DNA of 42,670 nucleotides, taken from Candidatus Zixiibacteriota bacterium (GTDB lineage Bacteria; Electryoneota; B3-LCP). The notes under the pieces were generated by a model. That model searched no databases. It was not told the origin of the DNA and saw only the letters and a list, made by a program, of their open reading frames with translations. Shown one piece after another: positions 6,000 to 23,658 of this stretch (positions within the stretch are counted from its first letter, which is position 1; each line of letters begins with the position of its first letter). The position numbers were made by a program, and so were the translations under genes. The stretch lies in assembly GCA_003599535.1 (NCBI GenBank), contig QZKQ01000132.1:1-42670 (forward strand). Reading direction: 5' to 3'.

Positions 6000-8541
6000 G
6001 TGACTCTCCTTGAAGCTCAAGGTTCAACTTGGCGGCGAATTCCCGGAGATACCACTGGGCCCGGGCGTCGCTGGACAGGGCCATGTCGAGCTGCTTGGTC
6101 AGGATGGTGATCCGGCCCAGCAGCCGCAACCGTCCCAGGATAACCTCCTCGGGCTGGTAGGCGATGGAGGAATCCAGGAAGTCGCCCTGGCTGGAGTTTT
6201 CGAAGCCCATCAGGCGCTGCAGTTCGCTGATCAGCCAGATGCGGCGGATGCGCCGTTCCAGCGGGGCCCCTCCCAGCTTGAACTGCATGCGGATGTAGTT
6301 CTTGGCCGGCTCCGGGGTGGCCATGGACTCGATGGTGGAGAAATGATAGCCCATGCGCAGGTTCAGGAGCATGTAGTCCTGGCTCAGGAAGGCGTAGCTG
6401 TTTTCGGAGAATTCGGGGTGATGGCCTTCCTGGATGTTGGTGCCCACCACCGACATGAAGCCCTTCAGGTCGGCGGGCACCTGGGACTGGGGCCATCCTT
6501 CTTCCAGGATGCCGCCCCACAAGGCCTGCATGGGCCGGGAATGGATCTCATGCTCCGGAATCCAGCGCCGGCCCTTCTGATCCGGTGGGCTCTGGTCCAG
6601 GTGGATGACGTTGACCACCAGGGGGATGCTGGTCTTCAGCCGGATGCCGATGCGATCCTTGTGCGAGGTGCGCTTCAAGGCGACGAAGATCTCTTCCATC
6701 GCTTTCTGGTGGAGGAAGCGCAGGATGTCGTGCACCGTCTGGCAGTTTTCCACCGTAAACCGCGGTTCGCTGGGGTGGATGACATTCAGGTGGACGAGGG
6801 GAAAGATCATGCTGTTGGCGGTCCGTTCGGCGCGGGGCGGCGCGGCCGCCTCCGCCGGGCCGGGGGCGGGATCCGCCCACTCGGGATGCAGGCCGGCGTA
6901 GATCACGCCCCGGCCGGCGTCCACGGTGACTTCGGATCCTTCCGGCAGTTCGCCGGCCCGGGTCATTCCCACGACGGTGGGCACCCCCAGCTCCCGGGCC
7001 AGGGTGGCCAGGTGGCTGGTATTGCCGCCCACGCTGGTGACCAGGGCGTTGATCTTGCCCATCACCGCCACCAGGTAGGGCGAGGGGTTGGGGGTGACCA
7101 GGACCGCGCCCCGAGGGACCCGGTCCAGGTCCTCCATGGAATTCAGGTGGAAGACGGCCCCCTGGCCCAGGCCGCTGCAGATGGGAACGCCTCCTTCCTG
7201 CAGGATCAGCGAATCGAACTGGGCGGGGATGGCGAACACCGGCCGGCTTGCCGGGATGTTCAGCGGCCGGGTTTGCAGCAGGAACAGCTTCCCTGAACGG
7301 TCCAGGGCCCATTCGATGTCCTGCGGGCAGCCGAAATGCTCCTCCACCCGCAGGGCGCAGTCCCGCAGAGCGGCCAAGTGCTCCTCGCTGAGTGAAGGGC
7401 GTTCCTGGTCCGCCTCCGGCACGGGGACCTGCTTTACTCCCAGAGTGTCGTCCAGAACCAACTGCACCGGCTTGGGGTGGAGACGGGAAGAGACCACCCC
7501 GTCGGCGCCGCGGGAGAGATGGAAGATGTCCGGCGTCAGGGTGCCGTCCACCAGGTAGCTGCCCAGGCCGTACACCGCGTTGACCACGACATATCCCTCG
7601 TCCGGGCGCAGGGGATCCACGGTGTACATTACCCCGCTGGCGGCGGCGTCCACCATCTCCATGCAGACCACCGCCATGCCCAGGTCCAGGTCGGCCAGGG
7701 AATGGCTCAGCAGGTAGTAAATGGCCGAAGGGGTGAACTTGCTGGCCAGGATCTGTTTGTAGCGATCCAGGAGCTCGTCGCGGTGGACGTTCAGGAAGCT
7801 CAGGTATTGGCCGGCGAAGGAGAAGGAGGTGTCTTCACCGATGGCGCTGGAGCGCAGGGCGCAGCCGGACCGCCCGGCAGTTGCGGCCAGAGCGTCGTAG
7901 GCCGCGTAGATGGCCCCGGCCAGATCCTCCGGGACCGGCTTGCGGGTCACCGCTTCCTGGATGTCGGCGCTGACGACTTCCAGATCCTGATAGCTCTGGA
8001 TGCGGATGTCCTTCAGGAGCTTGCCGAGGCGCTCGTTCAACTGGTTGGCGTCCAGGAAGTGCTGGTAGGCCCAGGCGCTGATGGCGAACCCCTCGGGCAC
8101 GGGGCAGGCCAGCTTCGATTTCAGTTCGCCCAGGTTGGCGTTCTTGGTGCCGACGGAGAAGGACCGTTCCCGGCCCAGGCGGTCCAGGGGGATGACGAAA
8201 TCGTCGCGGGAAATCGGCCGGCCCACCGGCAGTTGCCGCTCTACTTCGGCGGAGATGGCGGCCAGGCGGTCGGACAGCGGGGCGTACTTCTCCCCGCCCA
8301 GCCGCACCATGCAGGCCACGGCCTGGCTGACCTCCCCCCGGATCTTCACGAACTCATCCCAAAACGGCATGCCTTCCAGGCCGCCGTCCAGGTGCCGTTC
8401 TTCCAGGCGGCTGATGCGCTTCAGGGCGGAGTTGTGCAGGTCAAGCAGGTCCCGAAACAGTTGAAACTGTTGCTGAACCTCCTGCAGCCGCCCCTGCCGT
8501 TGCTCGGGCGAGGGGCCGAAGACTTTCTCCCACCACCCCAT
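5974..8541 (-). CDS. PEP-synthase-like phosphotransferase lacking the PEP/pyruvate barrel
   Basis: An 855-residue protein. A helical N-terminal region (1-115) precedes an ATP-grasp domain of the PPDK_N type (about 120-430), with GTKNANLGEL, ALRSSAIGEDTSFSFAGQY and DIEWALDRSGKLFLLQTRP. A swivelling phosphohistidine domain (about 440-550) follows, with GGNTSHLATLARELG and catalytic His510. The third domain of PEP synthase and PPDK, the C-terminal TIM barrel that binds PEP/pyruvate, is absent. Residues 560-855 instead form a different domain that I do not recognise. The first two steps (ATP to phospho-His) look possible, but the acceptor is unknown and may be a protein or another small molecule. 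It is flanked by a sulfite-type exporter and a CBS protein. AAGGAAA precedes the ATG. Confidence 0.82.
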   Translation of the reverse strand: MGWWEKVFGPSPEQRQGRLQEVQQQFQLFRDLLDLHNSALKRISRLEERHLDGGLEGMPFWDEFVKIRGEVSQAVACMVRLGGEKYAPLSDRLAAISAEVERQLPVGRPISRDDFVIPLDRLGRERSFSVGTKNANLGELKSKLACPVPEGFAISAWAYQHFLDANQLNERLGKLLKDIRIQSYQDLEVVSADIQEAVTRKPVPEDLAGAIYAAYDALAATAGRSGCALRSSAIGEDTSFSFAGQYLSFLNVHRDELLDRYKQILASKFTPSAIYYLLSHSLADLDLGMAVVCMEMVDAAASGVMYTVDPLRPDEGYVVVNAVYGLGSYLVDGTLTPDIFHLSRGADGVVSSRLHPKPVQLVLDDTLGVKQVPVPEADQERPSLSEEHLAALRDCALRVEEHFGCPQDIEWALDRSGKLFLLQTRPLNIPASRPVFAIPAQFDSLILQEGGVPICSGLGQGAVFHLNSMEDLDRVPRGAVLVTPNPSPYLVAVMGKINALVTSVGGNTSHLATLARELGVPTVVGMTRAGELPEGSEVTVDAGRGVIYAGLHPEWADPAPGPAEAAAPPRAERTANSMIFPLVHLNVIHPSEPRFTVENCQTVHDILRFLHQKAMEEIFVALKRTSHKDRIGIRLKTSIPLVVNVIHLDQSPPDQKGRRWIPEHEIHSRPMQALWGGILEEGWPQSQVPADLKGFMSVVGTNIQEGHHPEFSENSYAFLSQDYMLLNLRMGYHFSTIESMATPEPAKNYIRMQFKLGGAPLERRIRRIWLISELQRLMGFENSSQGDFLDSSIAYQPEEVILGRLRLLGRITILTKQLDMALSSDARAQWYLREFAAKLNLELQGESHDENEVRG

Positions 8542-10064: not shown

Positions 10065-10499
10065 TTACCACGCCTTGTTGTCCACGATCTTGCGGATTTT
10101 CTCCTCGTTGCGCTTTTCCACCAGGAGCACCCGGTTGGCCTGGGCCTTGCGGATCTTGTCCAGCAGCAGATCCAGGCGGGCGGGCTTTTCCAGGACGTCC
10201 ATGGCGCCCAGCTTCATCGCCTCCACCCCCTGCTGCAGGGTGGCGCGGCCGGTCAGCAGGATAACCTGCAGGTCCGGGTTCAGGTCCAGGAGCCGCTTCA
10301 GGGTTTCGATGCCGTCCATTTCCGGCATGGCCAGGTCGAGGATAACGGCATCGTAAGCGTTCTGGCCGGCCAGATCCAGGGCCTTCAGGCCGTTGTCGGC
10401 GACGTCTACGGCGAGCCCGCGGTGCGCGATGCGCTCGGACAGGGCGCTGACGAAATCGGCCTCGTCGTCCACCAGCAGGATTTTATCCGTGCCGCTCAT
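10065..10499 (-). CDS. Stand-alone response-regulator receiver
   Basis: A 144-residue CheY-like protein with the acidic pair Asp11/Asp12, phosphoacceptor Asp55 (VILDLAMPE), the conserved Thr in LLTG and Lys in LEKP. A basic helical tail of about 20 residues follows, but no output domain. I chose the ATG at 10499, which overlaps the stop of the upstream kinase-like gene (ATGA) and follows GGAGG; the longer track ORF to 11042 is an in-frame extension through that gene. It probably acts as a phosphoryl carrier or protein-binding regulator in the local relay. Confidence 0.9.
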   Translation of the reverse strand: MSGTDKILLVDDEADFVSALSERIAHRGLAVDVADNGLKALDLAGQNAYDAVILDLAMPEMDGIETLKRLLDLNPDLQVILLTGRATLQQGVEAMKLGAMDVLEKPARLDLLLDKIRKAQANRVLLVEKRNEEKIRKIVDNKAW

Positions 10500-11176
10500 G
10501 GCACCTCCTCGCTTATCTTTGGTATCGTCAGGACGATGGCGTACTTTCCTGCCCGGGCGGCCGTCCGAACGCGGCCTTCCAAATTCCACAGCGGCGGCCC
10601 CAGCCAGGCCCCCACCGCCGCCGGTAATTCCGCTTCCGGCAGGGCCGGCGCACCGGTGATGGTGATCTCCACTCCGGCGCCGCCTCCGGTCAACTGGACG
10701 GTGACGATCCCCTGGGCCGCCGTGCCCGCCAGCGCCGCGCTGACGGCCAGGAACACCGCCTGCTCCAGGATGAACGGCCGGGTGGTCAGGGTGACCGGCG
10801 CCCCGGCTGGTTCGAAAACCAGGCGCACCCGGCGCTGCGCGGCGAAGCGCTCCATCAGGGCCAGCAGGTTTTCCAGGAGATCGTTCATCTCCTGATTGCA
10901 GCAAGGCTCGTCGGCGCTGTGGGCGAAGCCGTTCAACCGCCGGACCAGCTCGGTGCCGCGCTGAACCTGCCGGGCGATCCGCTCGGTGACGTTCAGGATC
11001 TTGTCGCACCCGGCCGGGACGTCGGCCTCGGGGTCGGCGCACCAGTCTTCCAGCAGTCCCGCGGTCTGCTCGATGATGGAGAAAACATTGTTCAGTTCGT
11101 GGGTGGCGCCGGCGGTAACGGCGCCGAAGAACGCCAGATCGCTGTCGCGCCAGCGGGGGTCCGGAGACCAGGGCAT
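10496..11176 (-). CDS. Histidine-kinase-like protein with degraded ATPase domain (possible phosphotransferase)
   Basis: A 226-residue soluble protein. Residues 15-95 form a dimerisation/H-box region with His26 in GATHELNNVFSII, close in sequence to the H-box of the neighbouring kinase (HEINNPISII). The C-terminal part (about 100-220) has the layout of a GHKL ATPase, but the N-box asparagines are lost (EQAVFLAVSAALAG) and no DxGxG, F-box or GTGLGL is present. It therefore should not bind ATP normally. This is how Spo0B and ChpT look: His-containing four-helix dimers with a dead ATPase fold that shuttle phosphate between receivers. It sits between two receiver genes. A decayed pseudokinase without transfer activity is the alternative. 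Confidence 0.72.
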   Translation of the reverse strand: MPWSPDPRWRDSDLAFFGAVTAGATHELNNVFSIIEQTAGLLEDWCADPEADVPAGCDKILNVTERIARQVQRGTELVRRLNGFAHSADEPCCNQEMNDLLENLLALMERFAAQRRVRLVFEPAGAPVTLTTRPFILEQAVFLAVSAALAGTAAQGIVTVQLTGGGAGVEITITGAPALPEAELPAAVGAWLGPPLWNLEGRVRTAARAGKYAIVLTIPKISEEVP

Positions 11177-11180
11177 GGGC

Positions 11181-11558
11181 TTATCCTTTCACGGCGGTCC
11201 GGATTTTATCCACCAGGACCTGAATGTTCACCGGTTTATACAGAACTTCGCGAATGTCCGGCGCCGCGCCGCCGGGTAGGCGGGCCAGCTCCTCTTCCAC
11301 CCCCCCCTGGCCGGTCATCAGCAGGGTCTTCACGCCGGGGTGGGCCTGCTGAATCCGGCGCTGCAGTTCCAGGCCGCTGATGCCCGGCAGCTTCAGATCC
11401 AGGACCACGGCGTCGTAGTGGCGCTGCTCCAGCCGCTGCAACGCCTCGGGCCCGCTGGTGCACCAGTCCGCCTGGAGGCCCCGCATCGCCAGCCGCTCCA
11501 CCAGGGTAGTGACCAGCTCTTCCTCATCGTCTATGACCAGTACCCGGATGTCGTCCAT
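11181..11558 (-). CDS. Stand-alone response-regulator receiver
   Basis: A 125-residue single receiver domain. Asp10/Asp11 form the metal site, Asp54 (VVLDLKLPG) is the phosphoacceptor, and Thr in LLMTG and Lys in LYKP are present. An insertion-like stretch, EEELARLPGGAAPDI, replaces the usual alpha-4 region, so the interaction face differs from its neighbours. There is no output domain. It ends 4 bases before the kinase-like gene and starts 15 bases after the dCache kinase, so the three are almost certainly co-expressed. Confidence 0.9.
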   Translation of the reverse strand: MDDIRVLVIDDEEELVTTLVERLAMRGLQADWCTSGPEALQRLEQRHYDAVVLDLKLPGISGLELQRRIQQAHPGVKTLLMTGQGGVEEELARLPGGAAPDIREVLYKPVNIQVLVDKIRTAVKG

Positions 11559-11573
11559 GGCGGCACCTCGCGT

Positions 11574-13277
11574 CTAAATCCGCGCCTTGGGCAGAATGAC
11601 CGTAAAACACGTGCCTTCACCCTGGCGGCTCTCGACGGTGATGGAACCGCCCAGCTTGTCCACGATTTCTCGGGTGATGGACAATCCCAGGCCGGTTCCG
11701 AATTCTCCCTTGGTGGAAAAGAAGGGTTCGAAAATGTGCTTCAGGTCTTCCGGCGCAATGCCGGCGCCGCTGTCGCAGATGGTCACAGCGACGGAATAGT
11801 CATCCGGCTCTTGCAGGGCGAACTGAATCCAGCCGCCGTTCTGGGTGGCGGAAAGGGCGTTGTTAACGATGTTCAGGAACACCTGCTGCAACTGGCCGCG
11901 GTCGCTCTCGATGGTGGGGAAGTTGGGCGGCGCGTCGAATTTGATGGTGATGTTACGGTGCTCCGGCTCGCGTCCCAGGAACCCCACCACCTCCTTCAGC
12001 AGCATTTCCAGGTCGAGGGTCTCGATGTGGGCTTCCATGCGCCGGGCGAACCCCAGCAGGCGATGGGTCACGGCGCTGCAGCGTTCCACCGAGTGCAGCA
12101 TGGAGTTGACGAGGGCCAGGACCTTCTCCCGCTGGGTAAACTGGTCGGAGGAGTCCACGATGTCCTTCAGCAGCCCGGCCTTCTCATTGATGATGGAGAT
12201 GGGATTGTTGATCTCGTGAGCCACGCCGGCGGCCAGCCGCCCGATGGAGGCCATCTTGTTGGTATATTCCAGGTTGTGCAGGATACGGGCGCGGCGCGTA
12301 TCCGCCAGGCGGATGCGGTTGACCATGTAAGTGGAACTGCCCAGCACCACCAGCAGGATCAGTACGCTGCTCCCGGCCAGGAAGCGCAGGGGGTTGTTGC
12401 GCACCGTGCTCCAGATCTGCATCAGGTCCTGGGGGTGATGCACCAGGATCAGGACGAAAGGAGACCGCTCGATGGGCGCGTAACTCAGGAAGCCGGCCCG
12501 ATCCCCGCTGGCGAACTCCACCAGGGTGCGCATGCCCTGGGGGTGGTCCGGCAGGGGCAGGGCGGCCTTCTGCAAGAGAGCGCCGTGGTAGCGCGAATTG
12601 GTCTGCAGGATGCCCGAGCGGTTGATGAGGAACACGTCGCTGGAGGGCCCCAGGTCCAGGGAACGGATCTGCCGGTTCAGCAGCTCCATGTCAATGGTGG
12701 CGCGCAACACATAGAAATCGCCGTCGGGCAGAACGTGCTTGGCGGCGATGACGAAATGGGGGAAGTTGCGGTACCCCATGAACACGTCGCTGACATAGAC
12801 TTCGCGCAGGGCGACTTCGTGGAACCAGGGCTGGTTGTTGTAGTTGTTGCCTTCCAGGTTGTAGGGCCCCACATAGAACACCTGGTTGCCCTGGGAATCA
12901 ACCAGGCCCAGGTCCACGAATCCGCCGAAAATGCGGTTCAGGGTGGTGAAGGTGGAGGCCAGGCCGTCCTTGCTCCACAGGTCGTCGCGCGGCTTTTCGT
13001 GCACCACCAGGGTCAGGGCGTGCTTGTGCACGTCAATGACAGACTCCAGGCTCCGGCTGGTGTTGGCCAGCAACTGGGACACGGGGTAGCGCATCTCTTC
13101 CTGCAGGGCCTTCTGGTACTGCTGATTGCTAATGATGGTCATGATGATCAGGGGCGTCAGCGAGACCACCGCCATCAGCAGGACCGAGTAGCGCCACAGC
13201 CGGTGGTACCGGTGCCGGTCCTCCGGGCTGGGCTTCTCCTCCGCCGGGTGGGAATTTCGAAATTGTTCGCTTGCCAT
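11574..13277 (-). CDS. Membrane sensor histidine kinase with dCache-type sensor
   Basis: A 567-residue protein. Transmembrane helices near 30-50 and 299-319 enclose an extracytoplasmic domain of about 250 residues with dCache features (FVDLGLVDSQGNQVFYVGP, NYNNQPWF, VLRATIDMELL). The cytoplasmic kinase has H-box His354 (GVAHEINNP), N-box QVFLNIVNNALSA, G1 DSGAGI, F-box FEPFFSTK and G2 GTGLGLSI, all intact. dCache domains bind small molecules such as carboxylates, amino acids and amines; the ligand here is unknown. The second kinase at 20127-21809 has the same layout, so they are paralogues. It has no PAS or receiver domain of its own, and its likely partners are the receivers encoded around it. 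Confidence 0.92.
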   Translation of the reverse strand: MASEQFRNSHPAEEKPSPEDRHRYHRLWRYSVLLMAVVSLTPLIIMTIISNQQYQKALQEEMRYPVSQLLANTSRSLESVIDVHKHALTLVVHEKPRDDLWSKDGLASTFTTLNRIFGGFVDLGLVDSQGNQVFYVGPYNLEGNNYNNQPWFHEVALREVYVSDVFMGYRNFPHFVIAAKHVLPDGDFYVLRATIDMELLNRQIRSLDLGPSSDVFLINRSGILQTNSRYHGALLQKAALPLPDHPQGMRTLVEFASGDRAGFLSYAPIERSPFVLILVHHPQDLMQIWSTVRNNPLRFLAGSSVLILLVVLGSSTYMVNRIRLADTRRARILHNLEYTNKMASIGRLAAGVAHEINNPISIINEKAGLLKDIVDSSDQFTQREKVLALVNSMLHSVERCSAVTHRLLGFARRMEAHIETLDLEMLLKEVVGFLGREPEHRNITIKFDAPPNFPTIESDRGQLQQVFLNIVNNALSATQNGGWIQFALQEPDDYSVAVTICDSGAGIAPEDLKHIFEPFFSTKGEFGTGLGLSITREIVDKLGGSITVESRQGEGTCFTVILPKARI

Positions 13278-13298: not shown

Positions 13299-14531
13299 TC
13301 AGGATTTCGGCCGTGCCTGGGCGGCCTTCTTCTCGCTCACCTTGCGGTACGCTTCCCGCATGATGCGGGCCAGAGAGTCCACGTTCACCGGTTTCTGCAG
13401 GTAGGCGAAGGCGCCCAGTTCCCGGGCCAGGGCCTCTTCGCGCTGGGAACCGTGCCCGGTCAGGATGATCACCTCCACATCGGGATGCTCCTTCTTCACC
13501 CGGCGCAGGACTTCGATGCCGTCAATGCCCGGCATCTTCAGATCCAGGACCATGACCTCCGGCTCGTCGCTGGCCACCCGCATCAGGGCCTCTTCGCCGT
13601 CGTAGGCGATGGCCGGTTCCATGCGGCGGGTCTGCAACCGCTCGGACAGGGTCTGCACAAACTCCCGTTCGTCGTCCACCAGCAACACCTTGGTGGGCAC
13701 GGCCAGGTCCACGTCGCGGATGATGCCGGGCTGGGTGAAGCGGTTGCCCACCCGGGTTTCCACAGAGTGAACCCCGGGGACCGACTGGGCCAGGGCCTTC
13801 AGTTCCTGCTGCAAGGCCTCGACCCGCAGCACCGAGCGGTTGATCTCGATGCGGACCCGGCCGCCGGAGCAGGTGACGTCCAGCCCTTCTCCCTTCTCCA
13901 CCAGGGCCAGGCTGACGTGGGCGGCCAGGAGCGCGTCTTCCAGCGCCTGGAGCGAAGCGGGAGTGCAGCCCACCGCTTCCTTGGCCGCGTTCTCAGCGAT
14001 GATCTGCACCGCCTGGTCCACGGTGGTGCTGTGCATGGGGATGACGATGTCGTAGAGGCTCTCATCCCAAGGGCTGTCGCCGTGCAGCCGCCGGGTCCAC
14101 TCGGCGCAGGCCTCGTCGTCCTTGCGGAGGCGCTTGCGGGCCTCCTTGGCGGACAGGCCTTCCCTTCCGGCCTGCTCCAGGCGGTAGTCGGCGTTGGCGA
14201 TCAGGCAGACCCGCAGGACGTGGGCGATGGTCCGGTCCAGCAGCAGCCCCGCGGAGCCGCAGTACAGGAGATCGTTACTGCGGGCCATCTCCAGCAGGGA
14301 GATCTTCAGGCAGGCCAGGAGCCGATCCCGCTCCCGGGGGGGCATTCCGAACAAGGAGGAGGACCCGCCTTCCAGGGCGCGCAGGAACTTCTCGCGGGGC
14401 ACGTCCCAGCGGTCGGCGGCTTCGCGCAGCAGCCGTTCCTCCACCCGCTCATAGTTCAAAGTATCGCACACCGCCCCGGCGACTTCGGGGCCGTGGCAGA
14501 ACAGTCCGTAATGGAGAGCTATGACAGCCAT
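13299..14531 (-). CDS. Cytidylate-kinase-like / BON-like / receiver fusion protein
   Basis: A 410-residue protein of unusual make-up. Residues 1-190 resemble the cytidylate-kinase-like family (AVIALHYG..., GPEVAGAVCDTLNY, helical body), but the family's glycine-rich P-loop (SREYGSGG) is replaced by LHYGLFCHG, so nucleotide kinase activity is doubtful. Residues about 195-265 look like a BON domain, ending ALAQSVPGVHSVETRVGN. Residues 280-400 form a receiver with Asp286/Asp287, phosphoacceptor Asp330 (VMVLDLKMPG), Thr in ILTG and Lys380. I chose the ATG at 14531 because AGGTG precedes it and it begins the first beta-strand; the track start at 14756 runs through non-coding sequence. A phosphorylation-controlled binding protein is a fair guess. 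It sits between the SulP permease and the second kinase. Confidence 0.75.
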   Translation of the reverse strand: MAVIALHYGLFCHGPEVAGAVCDTLNYERVEERLLREAADRWDVPREKFLRALEGGSSSLFGMPPRERDRLLACLKISLLEMARSNDLLYCGSAGLLLDRTIAHVLRVCLIANADYRLEQAGREGLSAKEARKRLRKDDEACAEWTRRLHGDSPWDESLYDIVIPMHSTTVDQAVQIIAENAAKEAVGCTPASLQALEDALLAAHVSLALVEKGEGLDVTCSGGRVRIEINRSVLRVEALQQELKALAQSVPGVHSVETRVGNRFTQPGIIRDVDLAVPTKVLLVDDEREFVQTLSERLQTRRMEPAIAYDGEEALMRVASDEPEVMVLDLKMPGIDGIEVLRRVKKEHPDVEVIILTGHGSQREEALARELGAFAYLQKPVNVDSLARIMREAYRKVSEKKAAQARPKS

Positions 14532-14595: not shown

Positions 14596-16824
14596 CTACC
14601 CGGCGTTCCGGGCTTTCTTCCGGGGGGCGGCCGCTTCGGGAGTGACGGCGCGGGCCATGCATTCCAGCAGGGGGCAGGCGGTCTCCCGGGAATGCTCGTG
14701 GGTTTTGCGGTAGAGCGCGGCGACCGCCATGGCCACGTTCCCGTAGACGTGATCATCCCCGATCTTTTCCAGCAGGTAAGTGCGCCGCATGGTCTGCAGG
14801 ACCTTCTCGTTCACCCCGCTTAAAGAGACGTCGTGGCCGGCGTCCCGCAGGCGCGTGACGATCTTGGAGAGCGTCTCTTCGCCGGAGGCGTCCAGTTCGT
14901 TGATGGCGTTGCAGACGATGTGCACGTGCCGCAGTTCAGGCATGGCGTTCTGCAGTTCCAGGATCTTCTCCTCCAGGTAGGCCACGTTGGCGAAGATCAG
15001 GGAATTGTTGAAGCGCACCACGGCCAGGTGGCGGCACTTCTGCAGGCCGCGGCGGTCCGCATCGCGGAAGGTGCCGTCCTCGAATTTGGACAGCAGCGAC
15101 AGGTCCGGCTTGATGTTGCGCAGCAGGAAATGGACCAGGGACAGGCCCACGCCGATCATGATGCCCTTGTCCAGGTGGGGAGCGAAGGCCAGGGTCAGGA
15201 CGAAGGTGATCACCGCGATGATGCCATCGTAACGCTGGGTCTTCCAGGCGTGGATGAACCCGTGCACGTTGATCAGGCCGATTACCGCCATCATGATGAT
15301 GGCCGCCAGGGCCGCCTGGGGGATATAGTACAGCAGCGGCGTGAAGAACAGCAGCACCAGCAGGACCACGGCGCTGGCGAAGGCGCTGGAGAACCCGGTC
15401 ACGGCCCCGGTCTGGTAGTTGACCGCGGAACGGGAGAAGGAGCCGGATACCGGGTAGGCGAGGGTGAAGGAGCCGACGATGTTGGACAATCCCTGGCCGA
15501 TCAGTTCCCGGTTGGGATCAATCTGCTGCCCGGTGCGCGCCGCGATGGCCTTGGCGATGGAGATCGCCTCCAGGAAGCCCAGCAGCGAGATGATCATCAT
15601 CATGGGCAGCAGGTCGAGGATGACATTCAGGTGCAGCCCCGGCGGCTGAATGCTGGGCAACCCGCTGGGGACGAACCCCACGACCGCTCCGCCGCCGGTC
15701 AGGGTGAGCGTATCCTGGGGCACGGGGCGGCTGCCGACCTTCAGTCGCCAGCGGCCGGCCAGCTTCGGCGTCCCCGGCGCCAGGGCCTGGGGCTCGCAGA
15801 GGAGGGTATCCCCGGAGGCTTCACGGTAGGGCACGAACACCAGGCGGCGCAATTGTGCGCGTTCTTCGCCGGCCTGCTCCTTCAACCGGACAATTTCCAG
15901 GTCGCTGATGGTGATGTTGTACTTGGCGGTAACATCGTTGGGATCTTTCAGATCGTGGCACCCCTGGCACTTGGCCTGAGCCTTCAAGTGCTTGCCCAGT
16001 TCGATGCGGCGGGCCATGGCGCTGTCAATCTCGGTCAGGGCGTGGTTGTAGGCGATGATCTTTTCCTGGGTGGGGACGCACAGAGAGCTGAGCGGCGCCT
16101 TCATCTTGCGCTCCAGGCCCGCCCCCCAGGAGATCATGGTGGTGACCACCACGGCGATCAGGACGTTGGGGATCCGGGGATTCAGGTAGCGCAACCCGAA
16201 CATGATGGCGAAGGCCAGGAGGGCCAGTCCCAGGGTCGGCAGATGGGCCGAATGGGGTATCGCCGCCAGCACGTTGTACACGGTCTGGTAATGGTGCTCT
16301 CCCTTTTCCGCGGTGACCCCCAGCAGGTTGGCGAGCTGCGAGGTGGCGATGATGATGGCGGCGGCGTTGGTGAACCCGTTGACCACCGGGTGGGAGATGA
16401 AGTTGACCACCATGCCCAGGCGGAACAGACCCAGCAGCATCTGGAAAATGCCGACCAGCAGGGCCAGGAGAACGGCATAGGCGATGAAGGCTTCGCTGCC
16501 GGCGGTGGCCAGGGGCGCCAGGGCCGTGGCGGTCATCAGCGATACCACCGCCACGGGCCCGGTGGCCAACTGCCGGCTGGACCCGAACAGGGCGGCCACC
16601 AGGGGCGGCAGGAACGCGGCGTAGAGGCCGTAGTAGGCCGGCAGATCCGCCAACTGGGCGTAGGCCATGGACTGGGGGATCAGCACCATGGCCACAGTGA
16701 GGCCGGCGATCACGTCGGCGCGCAGGTGGGCCGGCGAATAGCCCTTCAGCCAGGCCAGGAAGGGGAGAAAGCGGTACACCACGCTTCCCGGGCCGGCAGG
16801 ATTTTTAGTCCCTTTTTCGCGCAT
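14596..16824 (-). CDS. SulP-family anion permease with CxxCH loop and STAS domain
   Basis: A 742-residue SLC26/SulP transporter. The N-terminal signature DVIAGLTVAMVLIPQSMAYA (37-56), the TNAAAIIIATSQ segment, GFLEAISIAKAIAARTGQ and PVSGSFSRSAVN identify the family. A C-terminal STAS domain (about 590-705) is cytoplasmic. Between the helix ending near 235 and GFVPSGLPS near 383 lies an insertion of about 140 residues not found in ordinary SulP proteins. It contains CQGCH (286-290), the covalent c-type heme attachment motif, plus Cys249 and Cys343. In the 7+7 helix fold this loop follows helix 7 and should face the periplasm, where heme c is attached, which supports the reading. Substrates of the family are sulfate, bicarbonate and similar anions. 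The start follows only a weak ribosome site. Confidence 0.88.
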   Translation of the reverse strand: MREKGTKNPAGPGSVVYRFLPFLAWLKGYSPAHLRADVIAGLTVAMVLIPQSMAYAQLADLPAYYGLYAAFLPPLVAALFGSSRQLATGPVAVVSLMTATALAPLATAGSEAFIAYAVLLALLVGIFQMLLGLFRLGMVVNFISHPVVNGFTNAAAIIIATSQLANLLGVTAEKGEHHYQTVYNVLAAIPHSAHLPTLGLALLAFAIMFGLRYLNPRIPNVLIAVVVTTMISWGAGLERKMKAPLSSLCVPTQEKIIAYNHALTEIDSAMARRIELGKHLKAQAKCQGCHDLKDPNDVTAKYNITISDLEIVRLKEQAGEERAQLRRLVFVPYREASGDTLLCEPQALAPGTPKLAGRWRLKVGSRPVPQDTLTLTGGGAVVGFVPSGLPSIQPPGLHLNVILDLLPMMMIISLLGFLEAISIAKAIAARTGQQIDPNRELIGQGLSNIVGSFTLAYPVSGSFSRSAVNYQTGAVTGFSSAFASAVVLLVLLFFTPLLYYIPQAALAAIIMMAVIGLINVHGFIHAWKTQRYDGIIAVITFVLTLAFAPHLDKGIMIGVGLSLVHFLLRNIKPDLSLLSKFEDGTFRDADRRGLQKCRHLAVVRFNNSLIFANVAYLEEKILELQNAMPELRHVHIVCNAINELDASGEETLSKIVTRLRDAGHDVSLSGVNEKVLQTMRRTYLLEKIGDDHVYGNVAMAVAALYRKTHEHSRETACPLLECMARAVTPEAAAPRKKARNAG

Positions 16825-16848: not shown

Positions 16849-17337
16849 CTACTTCTCTTCGTCATCCAGGCGCCGCAGCTCCCGCAGGATGCCCAGGGCG
16901 CTGGAACCGGTAGCCAACTGCAGGATCCGGTCGGTCTTTTCCCGGTCGGCTTCGAACTTGTTCCTGAGCCGCGCCTGGTAGGCGTCTTTCAGGATATCCA
17001 GCAGTTGCTCCAGTTCGTAGGGCTTGGGCAGGTAGCCGAAGGCCCCCAGCTTGGTGCACTCCACGGCGGATTCCAGCGACCCGTGGCCGGTCAGGATGAT
17101 GACTTCGATGAACTTGTGCTCCTTCTTCAGGATTTCCAGCACCTGGCGCCCGTTCATGCCCGGCATCTTCAGGTCGAGCAGGGCCAGGTCGAACTTGCGG
17201 CTGCGGGCCAGCGCGACCGCTTCCTGGCCGTTGGTGGCCTTGGTCACCTCCAGGCCGCGAATTTCCAGCCTCTTGGCGATGGATTCCAGGTACTTGATCT
17301 CATCGTCCACGATGAGCAGTTTGATGGCTTCGGACAT
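16849..17337 (-). CDS. Response-regulator receiver with short helical tail
   Basis: A 162-residue protein. Residues 5-122 are a receiver with Asp11/Asp12, phosphoacceptor Asp55 (LALLDLKMPG), Thr in ILTG and Lys in LPKP. The remaining 40 residues (ARLRNKFEADREKTDRILQL...) are charged and helical, possibly a coiled coil for binding a partner. No DNA-binding domain is present. AAGGAGG precedes the ATG. It lies 24 bases before the SulP gene and 31 bases after the receiver-DASS gene, so a regulatory role on either transporter is plausible. Confidence 0.9.
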   Translation of the reverse strand: MSEAIKLLIVDDEIKYLESIAKRLEIRGLEVTKATNGQEAVALARSRKFDLALLDLKMPGMNGRQVLEILKKEHKFIEVIILTGHGSLESAVECTKLGAFGYLPKPYELEQLLDILKDAYQARLRNKFEADREKTDRILQLATGSSALGILRELRRLDDEEK

Positions 17338-17368: not shown

Positions 17369-19441
17369 TTAGAAGCCGATCCAGCGCCAATAACCGAAGA
17401 ACAGCCAGCCCCACAGCACCGCCCAGGACAGCAGCAGCACGATGAAGCCGTGCTTCATGAAGTCGCCCAGGGTGACCAACTGTTTGCCGGTGACGGGATC
17501 CTTGGCCATGGCGTAGGCGATGGCGTTGTTGGGCGTGCCGATCAGCAGCATGTGGGCGAAGGACGAGGCGAAGGCCGAAGCGAAGCCCACCATCCAGGGG
17601 TGGGTGCCGGTCAGGGTGGCCATGGGCACGGTGATGGGCCCGATGGCCGAGACGGTCGCCCCGTCGCTCATGAACTGGGTGCAGGTCCCGGTGAACAGGC
17701 TGCAGGTGACGGCCAGACCGACGCCGCTGCGCAGAAATTCGGGCATCATGTTGAGGAACACATCGGCCATGTAGAGCGCCGCGCCGGTGGCGGCCAGCCC
17801 TTTGCCCAGGGCGCAGGCGCTGGCGTACAGCGCCACCACCTCCCACTGAATTTTGCTCACGTCCGCCCAGGTGACGATGCGGAAAACGTTCAGCAGGACA
17901 ATGGCCAGGATCACCGGGCCGCCCATGCCCAGGCTGTCGCTGGCGGTGATCCACAGGGTCACCAGCAGGATCATGATGGCGGCGGTGATGTACTCCATCC
18001 GGTTCATGGGACCGATCTTCTCCGCCGCCTGGTGCACGATGGCGGAGACATTCAGGGTCTTGACCTGCAGCTTGCGGCGGAAGGTCAGGTAGAAGTAGGC
18101 GGCGATGACCAGGCCCATCACCGGGACGAAGGGCAGGCCGTAGGTGACCCACTGGCTGAAGGAAGGGGCCACCCCGTAGTCGCCCAGGATGCCTACCATG
18201 ACGGCGTTGCGCCCGCCCGCCGCGGGCGACCCCGGCCCGCCGCAGTTGGCCGCGAAGCAGAGCGAGAGTACCAGCATGACGGCCAGGGACCGGTCCTCCT
18301 CCACCCCGGCGTTCCGAATGGAGGAGGCGTACACAATCATGAACAACGGCATGATGAAGGCCACCAGCGCATGCTCGGACAGGAAGGCGCAGGCGATGCC
18401 GATCATGGGCAGAAACAGGAACAGGAGCTTGGGCAGGGAGGTGGAAGGCCCCAGGAGCAGCAGCCCGATGCGCCGGTTCAGGCCGGTCTTGCCGATGGCC
18501 AGCGCCACCACCAGCACCCCGAAGACGAAGATGACGGCATCCTTGGCGTAGGCCTGGGCGATGTCGTCGGGGCGCAGGACGCCCAGGAAATACATGAACA
18601 CCCCCACCAGCAGCGCGGTGATGCCGATGGGCAACGCTCCGGAGGCCCAGAACAGCGCCCCCACGGCCAGAATCCCCAGCATCACCTTGGCCCGGAAAGC
18701 AGCCTCCTCCGGCTTCAGGCCGCGCATCTCCACTTTCTGGCCGTACTCGTCCTTGACGGTGCGTTCCAGCTTGTAGGAGCGGCTGTAATACTGGGTGATG
18801 GTCTCCCCGGGCTTCATCTTGTTGTAGCTGGCGTACCCCATGATGGGGTCGGTGGGGTCGTCCACCATTTTCCCCGTGGCCGAATGCTCCACCAGGGGGC
18901 GCTTGCCCTGGGAGAGGATGTTCATCATCCGGTTGGGGGTGGGCATGAAGGAGATGAGGGTGAAGATCAGTATGCCCAAGGCCACCACCCCGGGGCGGTA
19001 GTTGTGGACGCCCACCAGCCACTTCAGCAGCGAACCCTTCTCAATGTGGGGGATCTCGTGCTTTTCCATGGCCCGCACCTTATGCTTGCGGGCGGCGTCA
19101 ATGGTGGTCACCAGCCGGTCGAAATCGTAGGGCTTTTCCAGGTAGGTGTAGGCGTCCAGCTTGCCCGTCTCCACCGCCGAATCCATGCTGCCGTACCCAG
19201 TCAGCATGATGACCTGCAGCTCCGGCTTGAACTGCTTGAGTTCGCGCAGCACCTGTTCACCGGTCATGCCCGGCATCTGGCGGTCCAGGATGACCACGTC
19301 AATGTCCGGTTCGCGGCGGATGGTTTTGATGGCGTCGTGACCGTTGTTCAGGGCGATGTTCTCGTAACCCCTCAACAGGAGCCGTTCCGCGAGGGACTGT
19401 CGGAATTTGTCCTCGTCGTCAATCAGCAGTACCTTGGCCAT
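17369..19441 (-). CDS. Receiver-DASS fusion: response-regulator domain joined to an SLC13-type anion transporter
   Basis: A 690-residue protein. Residues 1-125 are a complete receiver: Asp8/Asp9, phosphoacceptor Asp53 (VVILDRQMPG), Thr81 (MLTG) and Lys103 (LEKP). A short linker with basic residues leads to a DASS (divalent anion:Na+ symporter) body from about 150 with 11-12 helices. The body carries an extracytoplasmic insert around 172-260 (PNRMMNIL...SYKLERTVKDE) and family segments such as FVFGVLVVALAIGKTGL and HMLLIGTPNNAIAYAMA. Family substrates are sulfate, dicarboxylates and tricarboxylates; the setting favours sulfate. The receiver must be cytoplasmic, so phosphorylation could gate transport directly. 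A single uninterrupted frame and a shared start argue against a sequencing artefact. GGGGA precedes the ATG, within a 12-base tandem duplication. Confidence 0.9.
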   Translation of the reverse strand: MAKVLLIDDEDKFRQSLAERLLLRGYENIALNNGHDAIKTIRREPDIDVVILDRQMPGMTGEQVLRELKQFKPELQVIMLTGYGSMDSAVETGKLDAYTYLEKPYDFDRLVTTIDAARKHKVRAMEKHEIPHIEKGSLLKWLVGVHNYRPGVVALGILIFTLISFMPTPNRMMNILSQGKRPLVEHSATGKMVDDPTDPIMGYASYNKMKPGETITQYYSRSYKLERTVKDEYGQKVEMRGLKPEEAAFRAKVMLGILAVGALFWASGALPIGITALLVGVFMYFLGVLRPDDIAQAYAKDAVIFVFGVLVVALAIGKTGLNRRIGLLLLGPSTSLPKLLFLFLPMIGIACAFLSEHALVAFIMPLFMIVYASSIRNAGVEEDRSLAVMLVLSLCFAANCGGPGSPAAGGRNAVMVGILGDYGVAPSFSQWVTYGLPFVPVMGLVIAAYFYLTFRRKLQVKTLNVSAIVHQAAEKIGPMNRMEYITAAIMILLVTLWITASDSLGMGGPVILAIVLLNVFRIVTWADVSKIQWEVVALYASACALGKGLAATGAALYMADVFLNMMPEFLRSGVGLAVTCSLFTGTCTQFMSDGATVSAIGPITVPMATLTGTHPWMVGFASAFASSFAHMLLIGTPNNAIAYAMAKDPVTGKQLVTLGDFMKHGFIVLLLSWAVLWGWLFFGYWRWIGF

Positions 19442-19475: not shown

Positions 19476-20030
19476 TTAACCTGATTCGGCGCAGCTTTTA
19501 ATGCGATTGGCAACTTCCCGGTACAGATCGGACAAGCGCAGAATCCCCACTACCTCGTTGCGGCGCGTGACCAGCAGGGAGAGGGTCTGCCAGACGATGA
19601 TTTTGTGCAAGGCTTCGCCCAGGGTGGCGTTCTCGTCCACGCTTTCGGTCACCGGGCGCATGACTTCCCGAACGCGGGTGGTCCGGGCCCGGCGGCAGAC
19701 GTCCTCCAGGCTATCCTTCCACAGGTTCATGTTCTCCATCATGGACTGGATGAATTCGGTGCTGAGCCCCACCTGGGACAGCACTCCCAGGTCGCCCACG
19801 GAGCTGTACTTGGGTTCCAGGGCCTTCAGGAACGCCAGGTGCCCCAGCTTGCCCACGATCCGGTTCTGGGCGTCCACCACCAGCACGGCGCGGTGCGGTT
19901 CCAGGCCGGGCGGCAGTTTGCTCTGGGACTTCTCCAGGGCGAGGACGGCATCGAGCAGAGTGTCCTCCTGGTGGACGACGGCATATTCGTCCAGAGGCAG
20001 CATCAGCTCTTTGACCCCTCTCTGTTTCAT
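19476..20030 (-). CDS. CBS-domain pair protein (paralogue of 5469-5999)
   Basis: A 184-residue protein with two CBS motifs (about 8-70 and 120-180; VLVVDAQNRIVGKLGHLAFL and SLLVTRRNEVVGILRLSDLY). I chose the ATG at 20030: GAGGA stands 5 bases upstream, and the protein then begins MKQRGVKELMLPL, matching MKCAGELMLPL in the other CBS protein. The track start at 20105 adds 25 residues with no ribosome site. It is placed between a histidine kinase and the receiver-DASS transporter. CBS pairs often regulate transporters by sensing adenine nucleotides, so direct control of the DASS or SulP proteins is possible but unproven. Confidence 0.87.
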   Translation of the reverse strand: MKQRGVKELMLPLDEYAVVHQEDTLLDAVLALEKSQSKLPPGLEPHRAVLVVDAQNRIVGKLGHLAFLKALEPKYSSVGDLGVLSQVGLSTEFIQSMMENMNLWKDSLEDVCRRARTTRVREVMRPVTESVDENATLGEALHKIIVWQTLSLLVTRRNEVVGILRLSDLYREVANRIKSCAESG

Positions 20031-20062
20031 GGGATCCTCACGAAAGAGACGGTATATGGGAT

Positions 20063-20120
20063 CGGATCGGCAGCCCGATCCGGACTGCAAGATTTCGCAT
20101 AGCACGGCCGCCGGCGGCCG
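20063..20120 (-). other. Two dyads between the kinase and CBS genes
   Basis: CGGATCGG-cagc-CCGATCCG (20063-20082) is an 8-bp hairpin, and CGGCCGCCGGCGGCCG (20105-20120) is a 16-base perfect palindrome, in the 96-base gap between the kinase stop and the CBS start. No T-run follows, so processing or partial attenuation is likelier than full termination. Confidence 0.35.
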
Positions 20121-20126
20121 CCGGGG

Positions 20127-21809
20127 TCAACTGACCGGGAGTCTCACGGTGAAGACGCTGCCCTTGCCCGGAATGCTTTCCACCAGGATGTCGCCTCCCA
20201 GGCTCTTGACGATGCCGTAGCTGACGGACAGCCCCAGCCCGGTCCCCTTGCCCACCTCCTTAGTGGTATAGAAGGGGAGGAAGATCCGGCCCATCATCTC
20301 CTGGGTAATGCCCTTGCCGGTGTCGGCGATGGCCACCGACAGCCAGCCGCTGGCGCAGGAGGTGGCGATGGTGATGGCGCCGGGCGGCTCGATGGCGTCC
20401 GCGGCGTTGTTCAGGATATTCAGTAACACCTGGGTGAGCTGATTGGCGTCGGTGACGATGCTGGGCAGTTCGCAGCTGTAATTCTTCACGATCTGAATAT
20501 TGGAGACCGCCATCTCCCGGATCAGCAGACCATCCACCACGTCGTCCAGCAGCTGGTTGACGTCGTGCGGCTTCAGGTGAATGGCGTCTTTGCGCACGAA
20601 GCTCAGCAGCTTGCGGGTGATATCCCGGCAGCGGTACACCGCCTCCCGGATGTTGTCCAGGTGCGGGATCAGGTCGTCGAAGGTGGTGTGCATCTTGAAC
20701 TCGGGGTTCATCAGGTCCCGGATCAAGCCCACCTCTTCAGAGATGATCGCCAGAGGGTTGTTGATTTCATGAGCGATACCCGCCGACAGCTCCCCCACCG
20801 AGGCCAGCTTGGCGGCATGCTCAAACTGCGCCTTGGCGGTCTCCCGCTCGATCTGCATCTGCACCAGCTTTTTGGAGCGGAAGACGATGATGGACAGCAC
20901 CACCAGGATGGGCGCCAGGGAGAAAGCCATGACGCCGAAGAGGTTGCCCAGCAGGGGGACGCCGTTTTCCCCCTCGATGTCCCGGACGACGACTCCCCAG
21001 CCGGCGGTGCGCATCCAGGCGTAGGCGTAATCCACCTTTTGGTGCCCCCGCCGCACCCTCTGGTCGCCGATGCGGGGGGAAACCGGCGGCACCAGCGGCG
21101 AAGCCTGCATGGGCGTGCCGATTTCCGGGGTGGCCAGTTGCAGCGTGCCGCTGCGGTTGACGATGGAGAAGGCGGTGTTGCGGGATTCCCCCAGGGAATG
21201 GAGGTAATCGGTGATGGACTTGGGATCCAGGGTGGCCCGCAGGACGAAGTACTGCCCGCCGATGATCCGCCGCACCGCCAGGGTGAAATGGGGCTGCTGC
21301 CGCAGGCCCAGGTACACGTCGGTGATGATGAAGTTTTCCTCGCCGCTCCTCAGGCTGATGAACCAGGCCTCGTGGCTGTAATTACGGTTCTCCAGGTAGG
21401 GAAGCGGCCCGGCGTAGGCGCGCTGAATGCCGGTGGAATCGAAGAACCCTACGTCCACGAAGGAGGGGCTATTCTTCTGCAGGCGGTTCAGCAGCGCTTC
21501 CATCAATCCGGAGGTCGGCGGCAGGGGCAGCTTGGGGTCGTCAATCAGGTTGGCCAGGTTGACCACCCGCTCGCTTAAGAAGAGATCCATCATGTTGGCC
21601 TGGTGCTCGGCCACGGATCTCAGGTGCAGCCGCCGGCCTTCCCGGGACACCGCGCGGTACTGCAGGGTGAAATAGACCGTGAGCAGAATCAGCGGCGCCA
21701 GATAGGTCAGGGCCAGGCGCAGGAAATTCTTCCCCAGCAGTTCGCGGTAATAGCGTTCGCTCGGCGTGTCCGCGCCGGGCGGCGGAACCGATGATTCCTT
21801 CTCGGGCAT
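20127..21809 (-). CDS. Membrane sensor histidine kinase with dCache-type sensor (paralogue of 11574-13277)
   Basis: A 560-residue kinase. Helices near 30-50 and 288-310 flank an extracytoplasmic dCache-like sensor with FVDVGFFDSTGIQRAYAGP, NYSHEAWF and VLRATLDPKSI, the same landmarks as in the other kinase. The transmitter has His347 (GIAHEINNP), N-box QVLLNILNNAADAI, G1 DTGKGI, F-box FLPFYTTK and G2 GTGLGLSV, so it should be active. It lies immediately downstream of the second DASS gene (37-base gap) and upstream of the CBS and receiver-DASS genes. The likely circuit is sensor to one of the receivers nearby; the fused receiver on the DASS protein is the most attractive target. Confidence 0.92.
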   Translation of the reverse strand: MPEKESSVPPPGADTPSERYYRELLGKNFLRLALTYLAPLILLTVYFTLQYRAVSREGRRLHLRSVAEHQANMMDLFLSERVVNLANLIDDPKLPLPPTSGLMEALLNRLQKNSPSFVDVGFFDSTGIQRAYAGPLPYLENRNYSHEAWFISLRSGEENFIITDVYLGLRQQPHFTLAVRRIIGGQYFVLRATLDPKSITDYLHSLGESRNTAFSIVNRSGTLQLATPEIGTPMQASPLVPPVSPRIGDQRVRRGHQKVDYAYAWMRTAGWGVVVRDIEGENGVPLLGNLFGVMAFSLAPILVVLSIIVFRSKKLVQMQIERETAKAQFEHAAKLASVGELSAGIAHEINNPLAIISEEVGLIRDLMNPEFKMHTTFDDLIPHLDNIREAVYRCRDITRKLLSFVRKDAIHLKPHDVNQLLDDVVDGLLIREMAVSNIQIVKNYSCELPSIVTDANQLTQVLLNILNNAADAIEPPGAITIATSCASGWLSVAIADTGKGITQEMMGRIFLPFYTTKEVGKGTGLGLSVSYGIVKSLGGDILVESIPGKGSVFTVRLPVS

Positions 21810-21846: not shown

Positions 21847-23373
21847 TCAGGGAGACGACAGCACCGGCAATCCCATCAGGGGCCAGAGGAATAAGACGAA
21901 CAGGCTCCACACCGCCAGCAGGATGAGGCTGGCGGGCACGCCGATCTTCAGGAATTCGGCGGGAGTGAACTGGCGGCTCTCATAGGCGATGGCGTTGGGC
22001 GCGGCACCCACCAGCAGCAGGAAGGGCATGCCGGCCGTCACCAGGGTGGTGAAGAAGACGATCTCCGGCGTCACCCCCAGGTAGGGGGCCATGAGCAGCC
22101 CGACCGGCAGCACGAAGGCGATGACGGCCACGTTCACCACCAAGTTGGTCAGCACCAGGATCAACCCGCCCAGGCAGAGGATGAAGACGAACCAGGGGGC
22201 GTGCTGGAACAGGGGCAGGCTCCGGACCGCCAGCCACTGGGCCGCTCCCGTCTGCCACAGGCACAGGCCCAGGCTCATGGTGCCCCCGAAGAGCAGGAGG
22301 ATGTTCCAGGGGATATCCTCCAGGTCTTGCAGGCTCAGCACCTTGAACACGAACAGCAACAGTGTGGTGGTCAGCAGCAGGCCGGTGCGGTCGAGCGGTT
22401 GCAGCCAGGGCACGGCCGAGCGCAGAATCAGGAGGGCCACGACTCCCAGGGCCAGGATCAGGACCAGTTTCTCGGACCGCTTCACGGGGCCCAGGCGGGA
22501 GGCGAGATCCCGGGCCCGGGTCTTCAGGCTGGGGATCACCTTCCGCTCCGGCTTAAAGAAGACCAGGACCAGCAGCCACAGCAGCACCAGCATGCACCAG
22601 CCCACGGGCAGCAGATACCAGGAAAATTCGGCGAAGCTGATTTCCCGCCCCGCGATGCCGTGGAAAAAGCCCGCCGCGATGATCCCGCGGGCCGCGCTCA
22701 GGTAGGTGACGATGCTGCTCCCCCCGGCGGCGAAGGCCATGCCGATGAACAACCCCTTGCCGAAGCGGGTGCTCTGGCCGTCCTCCTGGTACAGGGAATG
22801 GATGGCCATGAGCAGGGGGAAGATGGTCGCCGCGACGGCGGTGTGGGCCATGAACAGGGTCAGGACAGCGATCATGGCGAAGCTGCCCAGGTAGATCATG
22901 CTGGTGCGGTCCCCCGCCAGGGCCAGGATATTGTACGCCACCCGCTGGGTCAGGCCGGTCTTGCTGAAGCTCTTGCCCAGGATCAGGGTGGCGAAAATAA
23001 ACCAGATGGCCGGGTCGAAGAAACTGCCCAGGGCCGTCTGCGGGGAACGAATGGCGAACAAGACCTGGATCAGCCCCACCGCCACGCCGGTCACTCCGAT
23101 GGGCACCACCTCGAATACCCACCAGACCCCCGCCAGGAGGAAGAGCGCCAGAGTGGCCTTGCCTTCACGCGTCAGGGCGAAGTGCCGGCCCTCGGGGTCC
23201 ACCGCGTCCGCCCAGGGGGGGGCAAGGTAGACCGCCAGGAACAGCGCCAGGCCCAGCAGCAGGAGCGCCGCCCGGCGGAGCTCACCCGGGCTGAAGCGCC
23301 GGGAGCGCAGTCTCCGGGGGCGTTCCAGGATGGGGGTGGGCTGTTCGCCGCTGGCGGGCAGAGCAGAGGGCAT
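21847..23373 (-). CDS. DASS (SLC13-type) anion transporter
   Basis: A 508-residue membrane protein with about 12 helices. Family segments include FEVVPIGVTGVAVGLIQVLF, IWFIFATLILGKSFSKTGL, MSLGLCLWQTGAAQWLA and LLVGAAPNAIAYESRQFTPAEFLKIG. The two signature SNT positions read AHTAVA and TNLVVNVA, so the anion site is divergent. Substrate is likely sulfate or a dicarboxylate. I chose the ATG at 23373; the track start at 23658 adds 95 residues with no membrane or family features and would place regulatory sequence inside the coding region. No strong ribosome site precedes either start. The gene heads the long minus-strand cluster and has a Rex-like box 24-41 bases upstream. Confidence 0.83.
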   Translation of the reverse strand: MPSALPASGEQPTPILERPRRLRSRRFSPGELRRAALLLLGLALFLAVYLAPPWADAVDPEGRHFALTREGKATLALFLLAGVWWVFEVVPIGVTGVAVGLIQVLFAIRSPQTALGSFFDPAIWFIFATLILGKSFSKTGLTQRVAYNILALAGDRTSMIYLGSFAMIAVLTLFMAHTAVAATIFPLLMAIHSLYQEDGQSTRFGKGLFIGMAFAAGGSSIVTYLSAARGIIAAGFFHGIAGREISFAEFSWYLLPVGWCMLVLLWLLVLVFFKPERKVIPSLKTRARDLASRLGPVKRSEKLVLILALGVVALLILRSAVPWLQPLDRTGLLLTTTLLLFVFKVLSLQDLEDIPWNILLLFGGTMSLGLCLWQTGAAQWLAVRSLPLFQHAPWFVFILCLGGLILVLTNLVVNVAVIAFVLPVGLLMAPYLGVTPEIVFFTTLVTAGMPFLLLVGAAPNAIAYESRQFTPAEFLKIGVPASLILLAVWSLFVLFLWPLMGLPVLSSP

Positions 23374-23396
23374 GGTTGTATCGTCTGTAACAAGCT

Positions 23397-23414
23397 TTGT
23401 GAAATATTTAGCAT
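23397..23414 (-). promoter_or_regulatory. Rex-like box upstream of the DASS operon
   Basis: TTGTGAAATATTTAGCAT matches the Rex consensus TTGTGAA-N4-TTCACAA at 11 of 14 fixed positions, with a perfect left half. It lies 24 bases in front of the DASS start codon, a good place for a repressor. The fixed bases TTGTGAA-N5-TAGCAT are identical to those at 1973-1990. Confidence 0.45.
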
Positions 23415-23640
23415 AGCGAAGGCCAATTCGCGGCCGCTTCACTTCAAATGCAGGAGAATTCAGGAACAGTTCGAGTGCGGCTGGGAGAACGATAGAGGGG
23501 GAAGGGAAGGTCGTGTTCGGGCGCAGGAGAGAGAACCCCCTATCCCGCAAGCGGGCGCACCATGGCAGGTCCGCATGGCCACGAACTTCGGATCCGTCTT
23601 CGTTGCGTGCATGTCCTCCACGTAGGCTCTGGGGCCGCGA

Positions 23641-23658
23641 TTGCCAATATTTTAACAA
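23641..23658. promoter_or_regulatory. Second Rex-like box in the DASS/hemA-like spacer
   Basis: TTGCCAATATTTTAACAA matches TTGTTAA-N4-TTAACAA at 12 of 14 positions and TTGTGAA-N4-TTCACAA at 11 of 14. It lies 226 bases from the first box, which could allow looping. Confidence 0.35.

Follow-up and report, generated by a model that had tools for sequence, protein, structure and literature searches.

The window, by which we mean the whole 42,670-nucleotide stretch of Candidatus Zixiibacteriota contig QZKQ01000132.1 analysed here, encodes a real, conserved, receiver-bearing pseudokinase-BON regulator which, in sulfate reducers, is linked to transporters of the sulfate type. This protein, CK2-BON-REC, joins a cytidylate-kinase-like (CK2) domain, a BON-fold domain and a receiver (REC). 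Taking up sulfate costs the cell energy and is a first step in a respiration of global importance. Because the gene adjoins sulfate-type transporters and a sensor kinase in about 30 related genomes, we suggest that sulfate-breathing bacteria adjust sulfate uptake through CK2-BON-REC. An initial annotation, made from the DNA alone, had described the domains; the function is pointed to by a gene cassette, a link to sulfate reduction and SulP-receiver fusions, all of which lay outside that annotation.

The gene is read on the minus strand from an ATG at 14531 to a stop codon ending at 13299. Its parts are as follows.

13299..14531, minus strand: CK2-BON-REC response regulator, 410 amino acids (Pfam, alignment, AlphaFold2 model)
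13977..14531, minus strand: cytidylate-kinase-like (pseudo-NMP-kinase) domain, residues 1-185 (PF13189; 3hdt/3fdi by sequence and fold)
14484..14510, minus strand: degenerate P-loop region, residues 8-16, YGLFCHGPE (alignment with relatives)
13746..13961, minus strand: BON-fold domain, residues 191-262 (PF04972 of relatives, profile alignment, model)
13326..13691, minus strand: receiver domain, residues 281-402 (PF00072, alignment, fold)

This architecture is kept, at 37-62% identity, across 16 full-length relatives in an alignment, and is thus neither chance nor an assembly artefact. It was sought in other genomes, as the initial annotation had proposed, and found: 35 REC-fused loci were compared (in one, L041, the contig stops short of the receiver). 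An assembly-made fusion of CK2-BON with REC is ruled out by the many independent genomes with the same architecture.

The N-terminal half is cytidylate-kinase-like, as first described. Cytidylate_kin2 (PF13189) matches residues 3-166 at 65.9 bits (Pfam cut-off 28; E 6.5e-18), and the nearest structures by both sequence and fold are 3hdt and 3fdi. These two also headed a Foldseek search with the CK2-BON model; CMP, adenylate and shikimate kinases came next. Profile searches, which the initial annotation had named as its refuting test, found the cytidylate-kinase relation directly and the BON relation through relatives.

The usual P-loop is missing, again in agreement with the first description. 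GxxxxGK[ST], the mark of an active NMP or cytidylate kinase, is absent from the window protein. Where the canonical Cmk of this genome has G-P-A-G-A-G-K-T, the window protein reads H-Y-G-L-F-C-H-G-P-E-V-A, and Pro stands in place of the Lys. An active CMP kinase is ruled out by the missing Lys. Retained kinase activity on a nucleotide or some other small molecule, with the receiver in control, is also extremely improbable. The fold and membership of PF13189 would be compatible with such activity, but the P-loop has no Lys, stand-alone forms have a lid-region Arg that is not kept here (D139-E-A-C-A-E-W145), and the PDB structures of PF13189 are of uncharacterised proteins.

Loss of basic residues goes with receiver fusion. 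We compared the 35 REC-fused proteins with 43 stand-alone CK2-BON proteins, most of which have S-R-G-S-Y-S-x-G-K/R, a GxxxxGK-like and Walker-A-like loop. At position 15, Lys or Arg is found in 28 of the 43 stand-alone forms and Glu or Asp in 27 of the 35 fused proteins; the window protein has Pro. Ser takes the place of the stand-alone Arg8 in 29/35 fused proteins, and Cys that of Arg109 in 29/35 and that of Ser12 in 32/35. The view that a degenerate P-loop is a trait of the whole Pfam family is partly right, as 3fdi also lacks the Lys; against a family-wide decay, the stand-alone sister proteins mostly carry Lys or Arg where the fused clade has Glu or Asp. One branch of a maximum-likelihood tree parts fused from stand-alone CK2-BON (99% SH-aLRT), and therefore one fusion event, or one loss, is enough. 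Tandem stand-alone CK2-BON genes occur in five loci (L115, L116, L119, L121 and L123), where the second copy is more degenerate at the P-loop.

The CK2 half of the fused protein is, judging by these replacements, probably unable to bind nucleotides. R117, D139, W145 and D161 are kept in both fused and stand-alone CK2, so some ligand site may remain. Together with the NMP-kinase fold and the presence of Sat, AprAB and Qmo in the same window, these residues would suit a CK2 half that senses AMP, APS or ATP and combines the signal of the neighbouring histidine kinase HK1 with adenylate status from sulfate activation; sensing of APS or energy status is speculated upon in PMC11887813, though via CBS proteins. 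We consider a nucleotide sensor unlikely, given that the phosphate-binding Lys/Arg position has become acidic in those 27 fused proteins and that the stand-alone R8 and R109 have been lost. A thiol or sulfide-responsive site is very unlikely: it would consist of C12 in the P-loop and C109 in the strand LRVCLIA, which are near-invariant in the fused form (32/35 and 29/35) and are Ser and Arg in stand-alone forms, but six fused proteins lack C109, some of them still with C12. The initial annotation had spoken of ligand or protein binding gated by phosphorylation; this fits, and the evidence favours binding of a protein over that of a nucleotide.

The BON segment that had been proposed stands through relatives, and part of the direct evidence was negative. 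Pfam finds no PF04972 in the window protein itself, the best fused relative reaches E 0.031, below the cut-off, and the segment alone returned nothing useful from Pfam, NCBIfam or PDB sequences. PF04972 is found at the matching place in stand-alone relatives, namely the genome's own paralogue on contig C90 and the L024 protein (E 4.6e-11 and 5.3e-10). The family profile aligns end-to-end with the latter (263 columns, E 3e-37, hhalign), which itself matches OsmY (8rjx) in the PDB. In an AlphaFold2 model made from 18 sequences (mean pLDDT 87.2 for the whole protein; pLDDT 91.6 and pTM 0.88 for the CK2-BON residues 1-270), residues 191-261 form helix, strand, strand, helix, strand, which is the BON alpha-beta-beta-alpha-beta order. 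The assignment of the window protein as BON-bearing is a prediction that holds by homology and modelled fold.

The receiver comes last in the protein, as originally noted. Response_reg (PF00072) matches residues 282-389 at 87.4 bits (Pfam cut-off 30.2), and the acid pair D286/D287, the phospho-acceptor D330, T358 and K380 are present and at least 90% conserved in the alignment. A fold search with the full-length model placed a Spo0F receiver first, and the matches listed were receivers only. Pfam matched no DNA-binding output domain of the OmpR/WalR, NarL or NtrC types, and no more than about 25 residues follow the receiver.

The window carries sat, aprA, aprB, qmo-like and dsrMKOP-like genes and is therefore a dissimilatory sulfate-reduction island. 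It also holds a second DsrM/DsrK-like pair (2804-5325, plus strand), separate from its dsr genes, which lie at 37-42 kb. CK2-BON-REC lies in a minus-strand run with short gaps, in the order DASS, HK2, CBS, REC-DASS, REC_c, SulP, CK2-BON-REC, HK1, REC_b, DHp-like protein and REC_a.

21847..23658, minus strand: DASS/SLC13 transporter
20127..21809, minus strand: second dCache histidine kinase, HK2 (Pfam)
19476..20105, minus strand: CBS-domain protein (Pfam)
17369..19441, minus strand: DASS/SLC13 transporter with an N-terminally fused receiver (Pfam, locus comparison)
16849..17337, minus strand: receiver REC_c (Pfam)
14596..16824, minus strand: SulP anion transporter with STAS, directly upstream of CK2-BON-REC (Pfam, locus comparison)
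11574..13277, minus strand: dCache sensor histidine kinase HK1, directly downstream of CK2-BON-REC (Pfam, locus comparison)
11181..11558, minus strand: single-domain receiver REC_b (Pfam, locus comparison)
10496..11176, minus strand: HisKA/DHp protein without recognisable ATPase boxes (Pfam, alignment)
10065..10514, minus strand: single-domain receiver REC_a (Pfam, locus comparison)

Promoter and terminator scans did no better than shuffles. The DHp-like protein is a candidate Spo0B/ChpT-like phosphotransferase or phosphatase, which we offer as a lead because H26, E27 and N30 are kept in 12/12 aligned sequences and none of these has N, G1 or G2 boxes. A PEP-synthase-like protein (PPDK_N and PEP-utilizers; 5974-8541) is encoded near the cassette, and homologues of it also occur near several CK2-BON loci of other genomes. 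A large insert between membrane segments contains a heme-c-like CxxCH motif (AKCQGCHDLK or AKCQACHDLK) in the window SulP and in that of L034; the five further SulP proteins that were read (L045, L073, L129, L131 and L132) do not have it.

The cassette recurs in related genomes. Homologous loci were matched to the window proteins, and neighbours were counted by reading match tables together with sequence. Home-phylum genomes again show the order transporter, CK2-BON-REC, HK1, REC_b, DHp protein, REC_a, as do loci named Desulfobacterales, Desulfobacteraceae, Desulfosoma and Syntrophaceae. SulP adjoins CK2-BON-REC in 27/35 fused loci (27/34 with readable flanks, the flanks of L076 being incomplete where a contig end cuts the locus), divergently in L035, and DASS lies within three genes in 6/35. 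HK1 is the next gene after CK2-BON-REC in 27 of the 35. One fused gene (L050) keeps HK1 and receivers and adjoins neither SulP nor DASS, which counts against a transporter model.

Some transporters in these loci bear receivers themselves. In L129, L131 and L132 the SulP adjoining CK2-BON-REC has a C-terminal receiver after STAS, which scores 180-193 bits on the CK2-BON-REC receiver profile, within the family's own range of 168-223. All other receivers reach at most 134 bits, save two small open reading frames (187 in L138 and 172 in L132). By profile score, these SulP-STAS-REC receivers belong to the CK2-BON-REC receiver subfamily. The receiver-DASS fusion of the window (17369-19441) is shared by L034 and, judging from open-frame lengths, by several relatives. 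In eight neighbourhoods, stand-alone CK2-BON genes come after a CitMHS/SLC13 permease with TrkA_C domains. Thus, from the SulP, DASS and CitMHS/SLC13 cases, the tie between CK2-BON, receiver and anion transporter recurs with three transporter types. In L107, the gene before CK2-BON, on the opposite strand, looks by eye like an APS kinase (CysC).

These fusions also bear on the idea of indirect transcriptional control, in which CK2-BON-REC would sequester or activate a regulator other than itself. PMC11887813 proposes response regulators on promoters and TetR repressors on sulP, which would accommodate such a role. However, Pfam recognised no DNA-binding domain in any receiver protein of the window cassette, where the outputs are CK2-BON or a DASS transporter, and receivers are fused to the transporters themselves. 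We regard indirect transcription control as quite improbable.

The presence of CK2-BON-REC tracks aprA. The home-phylum sample comprised 39 genomes, including Candidatus Hatepunaea (NCBI: Candidatus Electryoneota), and the fused gene was found in 16 of them. aprA was over the cut-off in 15/16 carriers and 4/23 non-carriers (Fisher p 2e-6). In a second phylum (148 genomes), aprA accompanied any CK2-BON (E below 1e-40) in 31/35 genomes against 31/113 (p 9e-11), and the fused form, told apart from the stand-alone form by open-frame length, in 12/15 against 50/133 (p 2e-3); all these Fisher tests ignore the shared ancestry of the genomes. Exceptions run both ways: the fused gene occurs without aprA in three second-phylum genomes and in one home-phylum genome that is 80% complete, and four aprA-positive home-phylum genomes are without it. 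Across a broad sample, a strong CK2-BON match was found in only 26/386 genomes.

That CK2-BON-REC belongs to a transporter signalling cassette is far more certain than the mechanism by which it might act there. We give roughly even credence to a phospho-switched docking of the protein on the adjacent transporter. CK2-BON-REC would be a response regulator without DNA binding, within a sulfate-type transporter signalling cassette. HK1 is the likely phospho-donor to D330 of the receiver, perhaps via a relay of the single-domain receivers REC_b and REC_a and the DHp-only protein. Phosphorylation at D330 would alter the presentation of a rigid CK2-BON half, in which CK2, its nucleotide-phosphate site lost, would serve as a docking domain and BON may bring the protein close to the membrane or let it self-associate. 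Once phosphorylated, CK2-BON-REC would bind the adjacent SulP (DASS in some genomes) and alter its activity or stability, in either direction. Family membership and the location in a sulfate-reduction island suggest sulfate both as the transported substrate and as the signal. CK2-BON-REC may also have partners outside the cassette.

More generally, sulfate reducers could control SulP and DASS after translation through receivers, both fused ones and a docking, phospho-switched pseudokinase-BON adaptor, with no DNA-binding step; we hold this tentatively, with the balance leaning somewhat against it. How sulfate reducers control sulfate uptake has been proposed but not worked out (PMC11887813). 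With its transporter-borne receivers and its own pseudokinase regulator, this conserved cassette provides named genes and proteins for study. We found no paper in the open-licence literature that links a cytidylate-kinase-like protein with a response regulator, or with BON and two-component signalling, and titles and abstract openings there gave no receiver fused to SulP/STAS or another transporter. PMC5840216, a sulfate transporter survey, has no response regulator, two-component or histidine kinase terms.

The closest known relatives are the stand-alone CK2-BON proteins (PF13189 and PF04972; for example C90, L024/L134 and L119), which share the CK2 and BON modules in about 260 amino acids. 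Many of their genes adjoin anion permeases (CitMHS/SLC13 with TrkA_C) together with a separate receiver and a histidine kinase. They differ in having no receiver and, in 28/43, a Walker-A-like G-S-Y-S-x-G-K/R, and they form a sister group. CMP kinase (Cmk; 2cmk, 2h92, 1kdo) shares the P-loop NMP-kinase fold, but has GxxGxGK[ST], whereas CK2-BON-REC is without the P-loop Lys and has BON and REC in addition. The Cytidylate_kin2 structures 3hdt and 3fdi, the closest solved ones by sequence and fold, are without BON or REC.

Among signalling systems, the clusters of Desulfobacteraceae described in PMC11887813, a survey of sulfate reducers, combine a SulP or DASS transporter with Cache histidine kinases, response regulators and CBS proteins, and the window has the same components. 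Those clusters are modelled as sulfate-uptake control with promoter-binding regulators. The main text of PMC11887813 places WalR-type regulators on promoters, gives no cytidylate-kinase-like regulator or receiver-transporter fusion, and does not contain the word "cytidylate". Response regulators that do not bind DNA are known, an exopolysaccharide regulator being one example by the title of PMC12802240. CheY and Spo0F, single-domain members of this kind, share with CK2-BON-REC an intact receiver and a presumed protein-contact output; CK2-BON-REC adds a CK2-BON output module, and would thereby add a degenerate nucleotide-kinase domain to the known outputs of response regulators.
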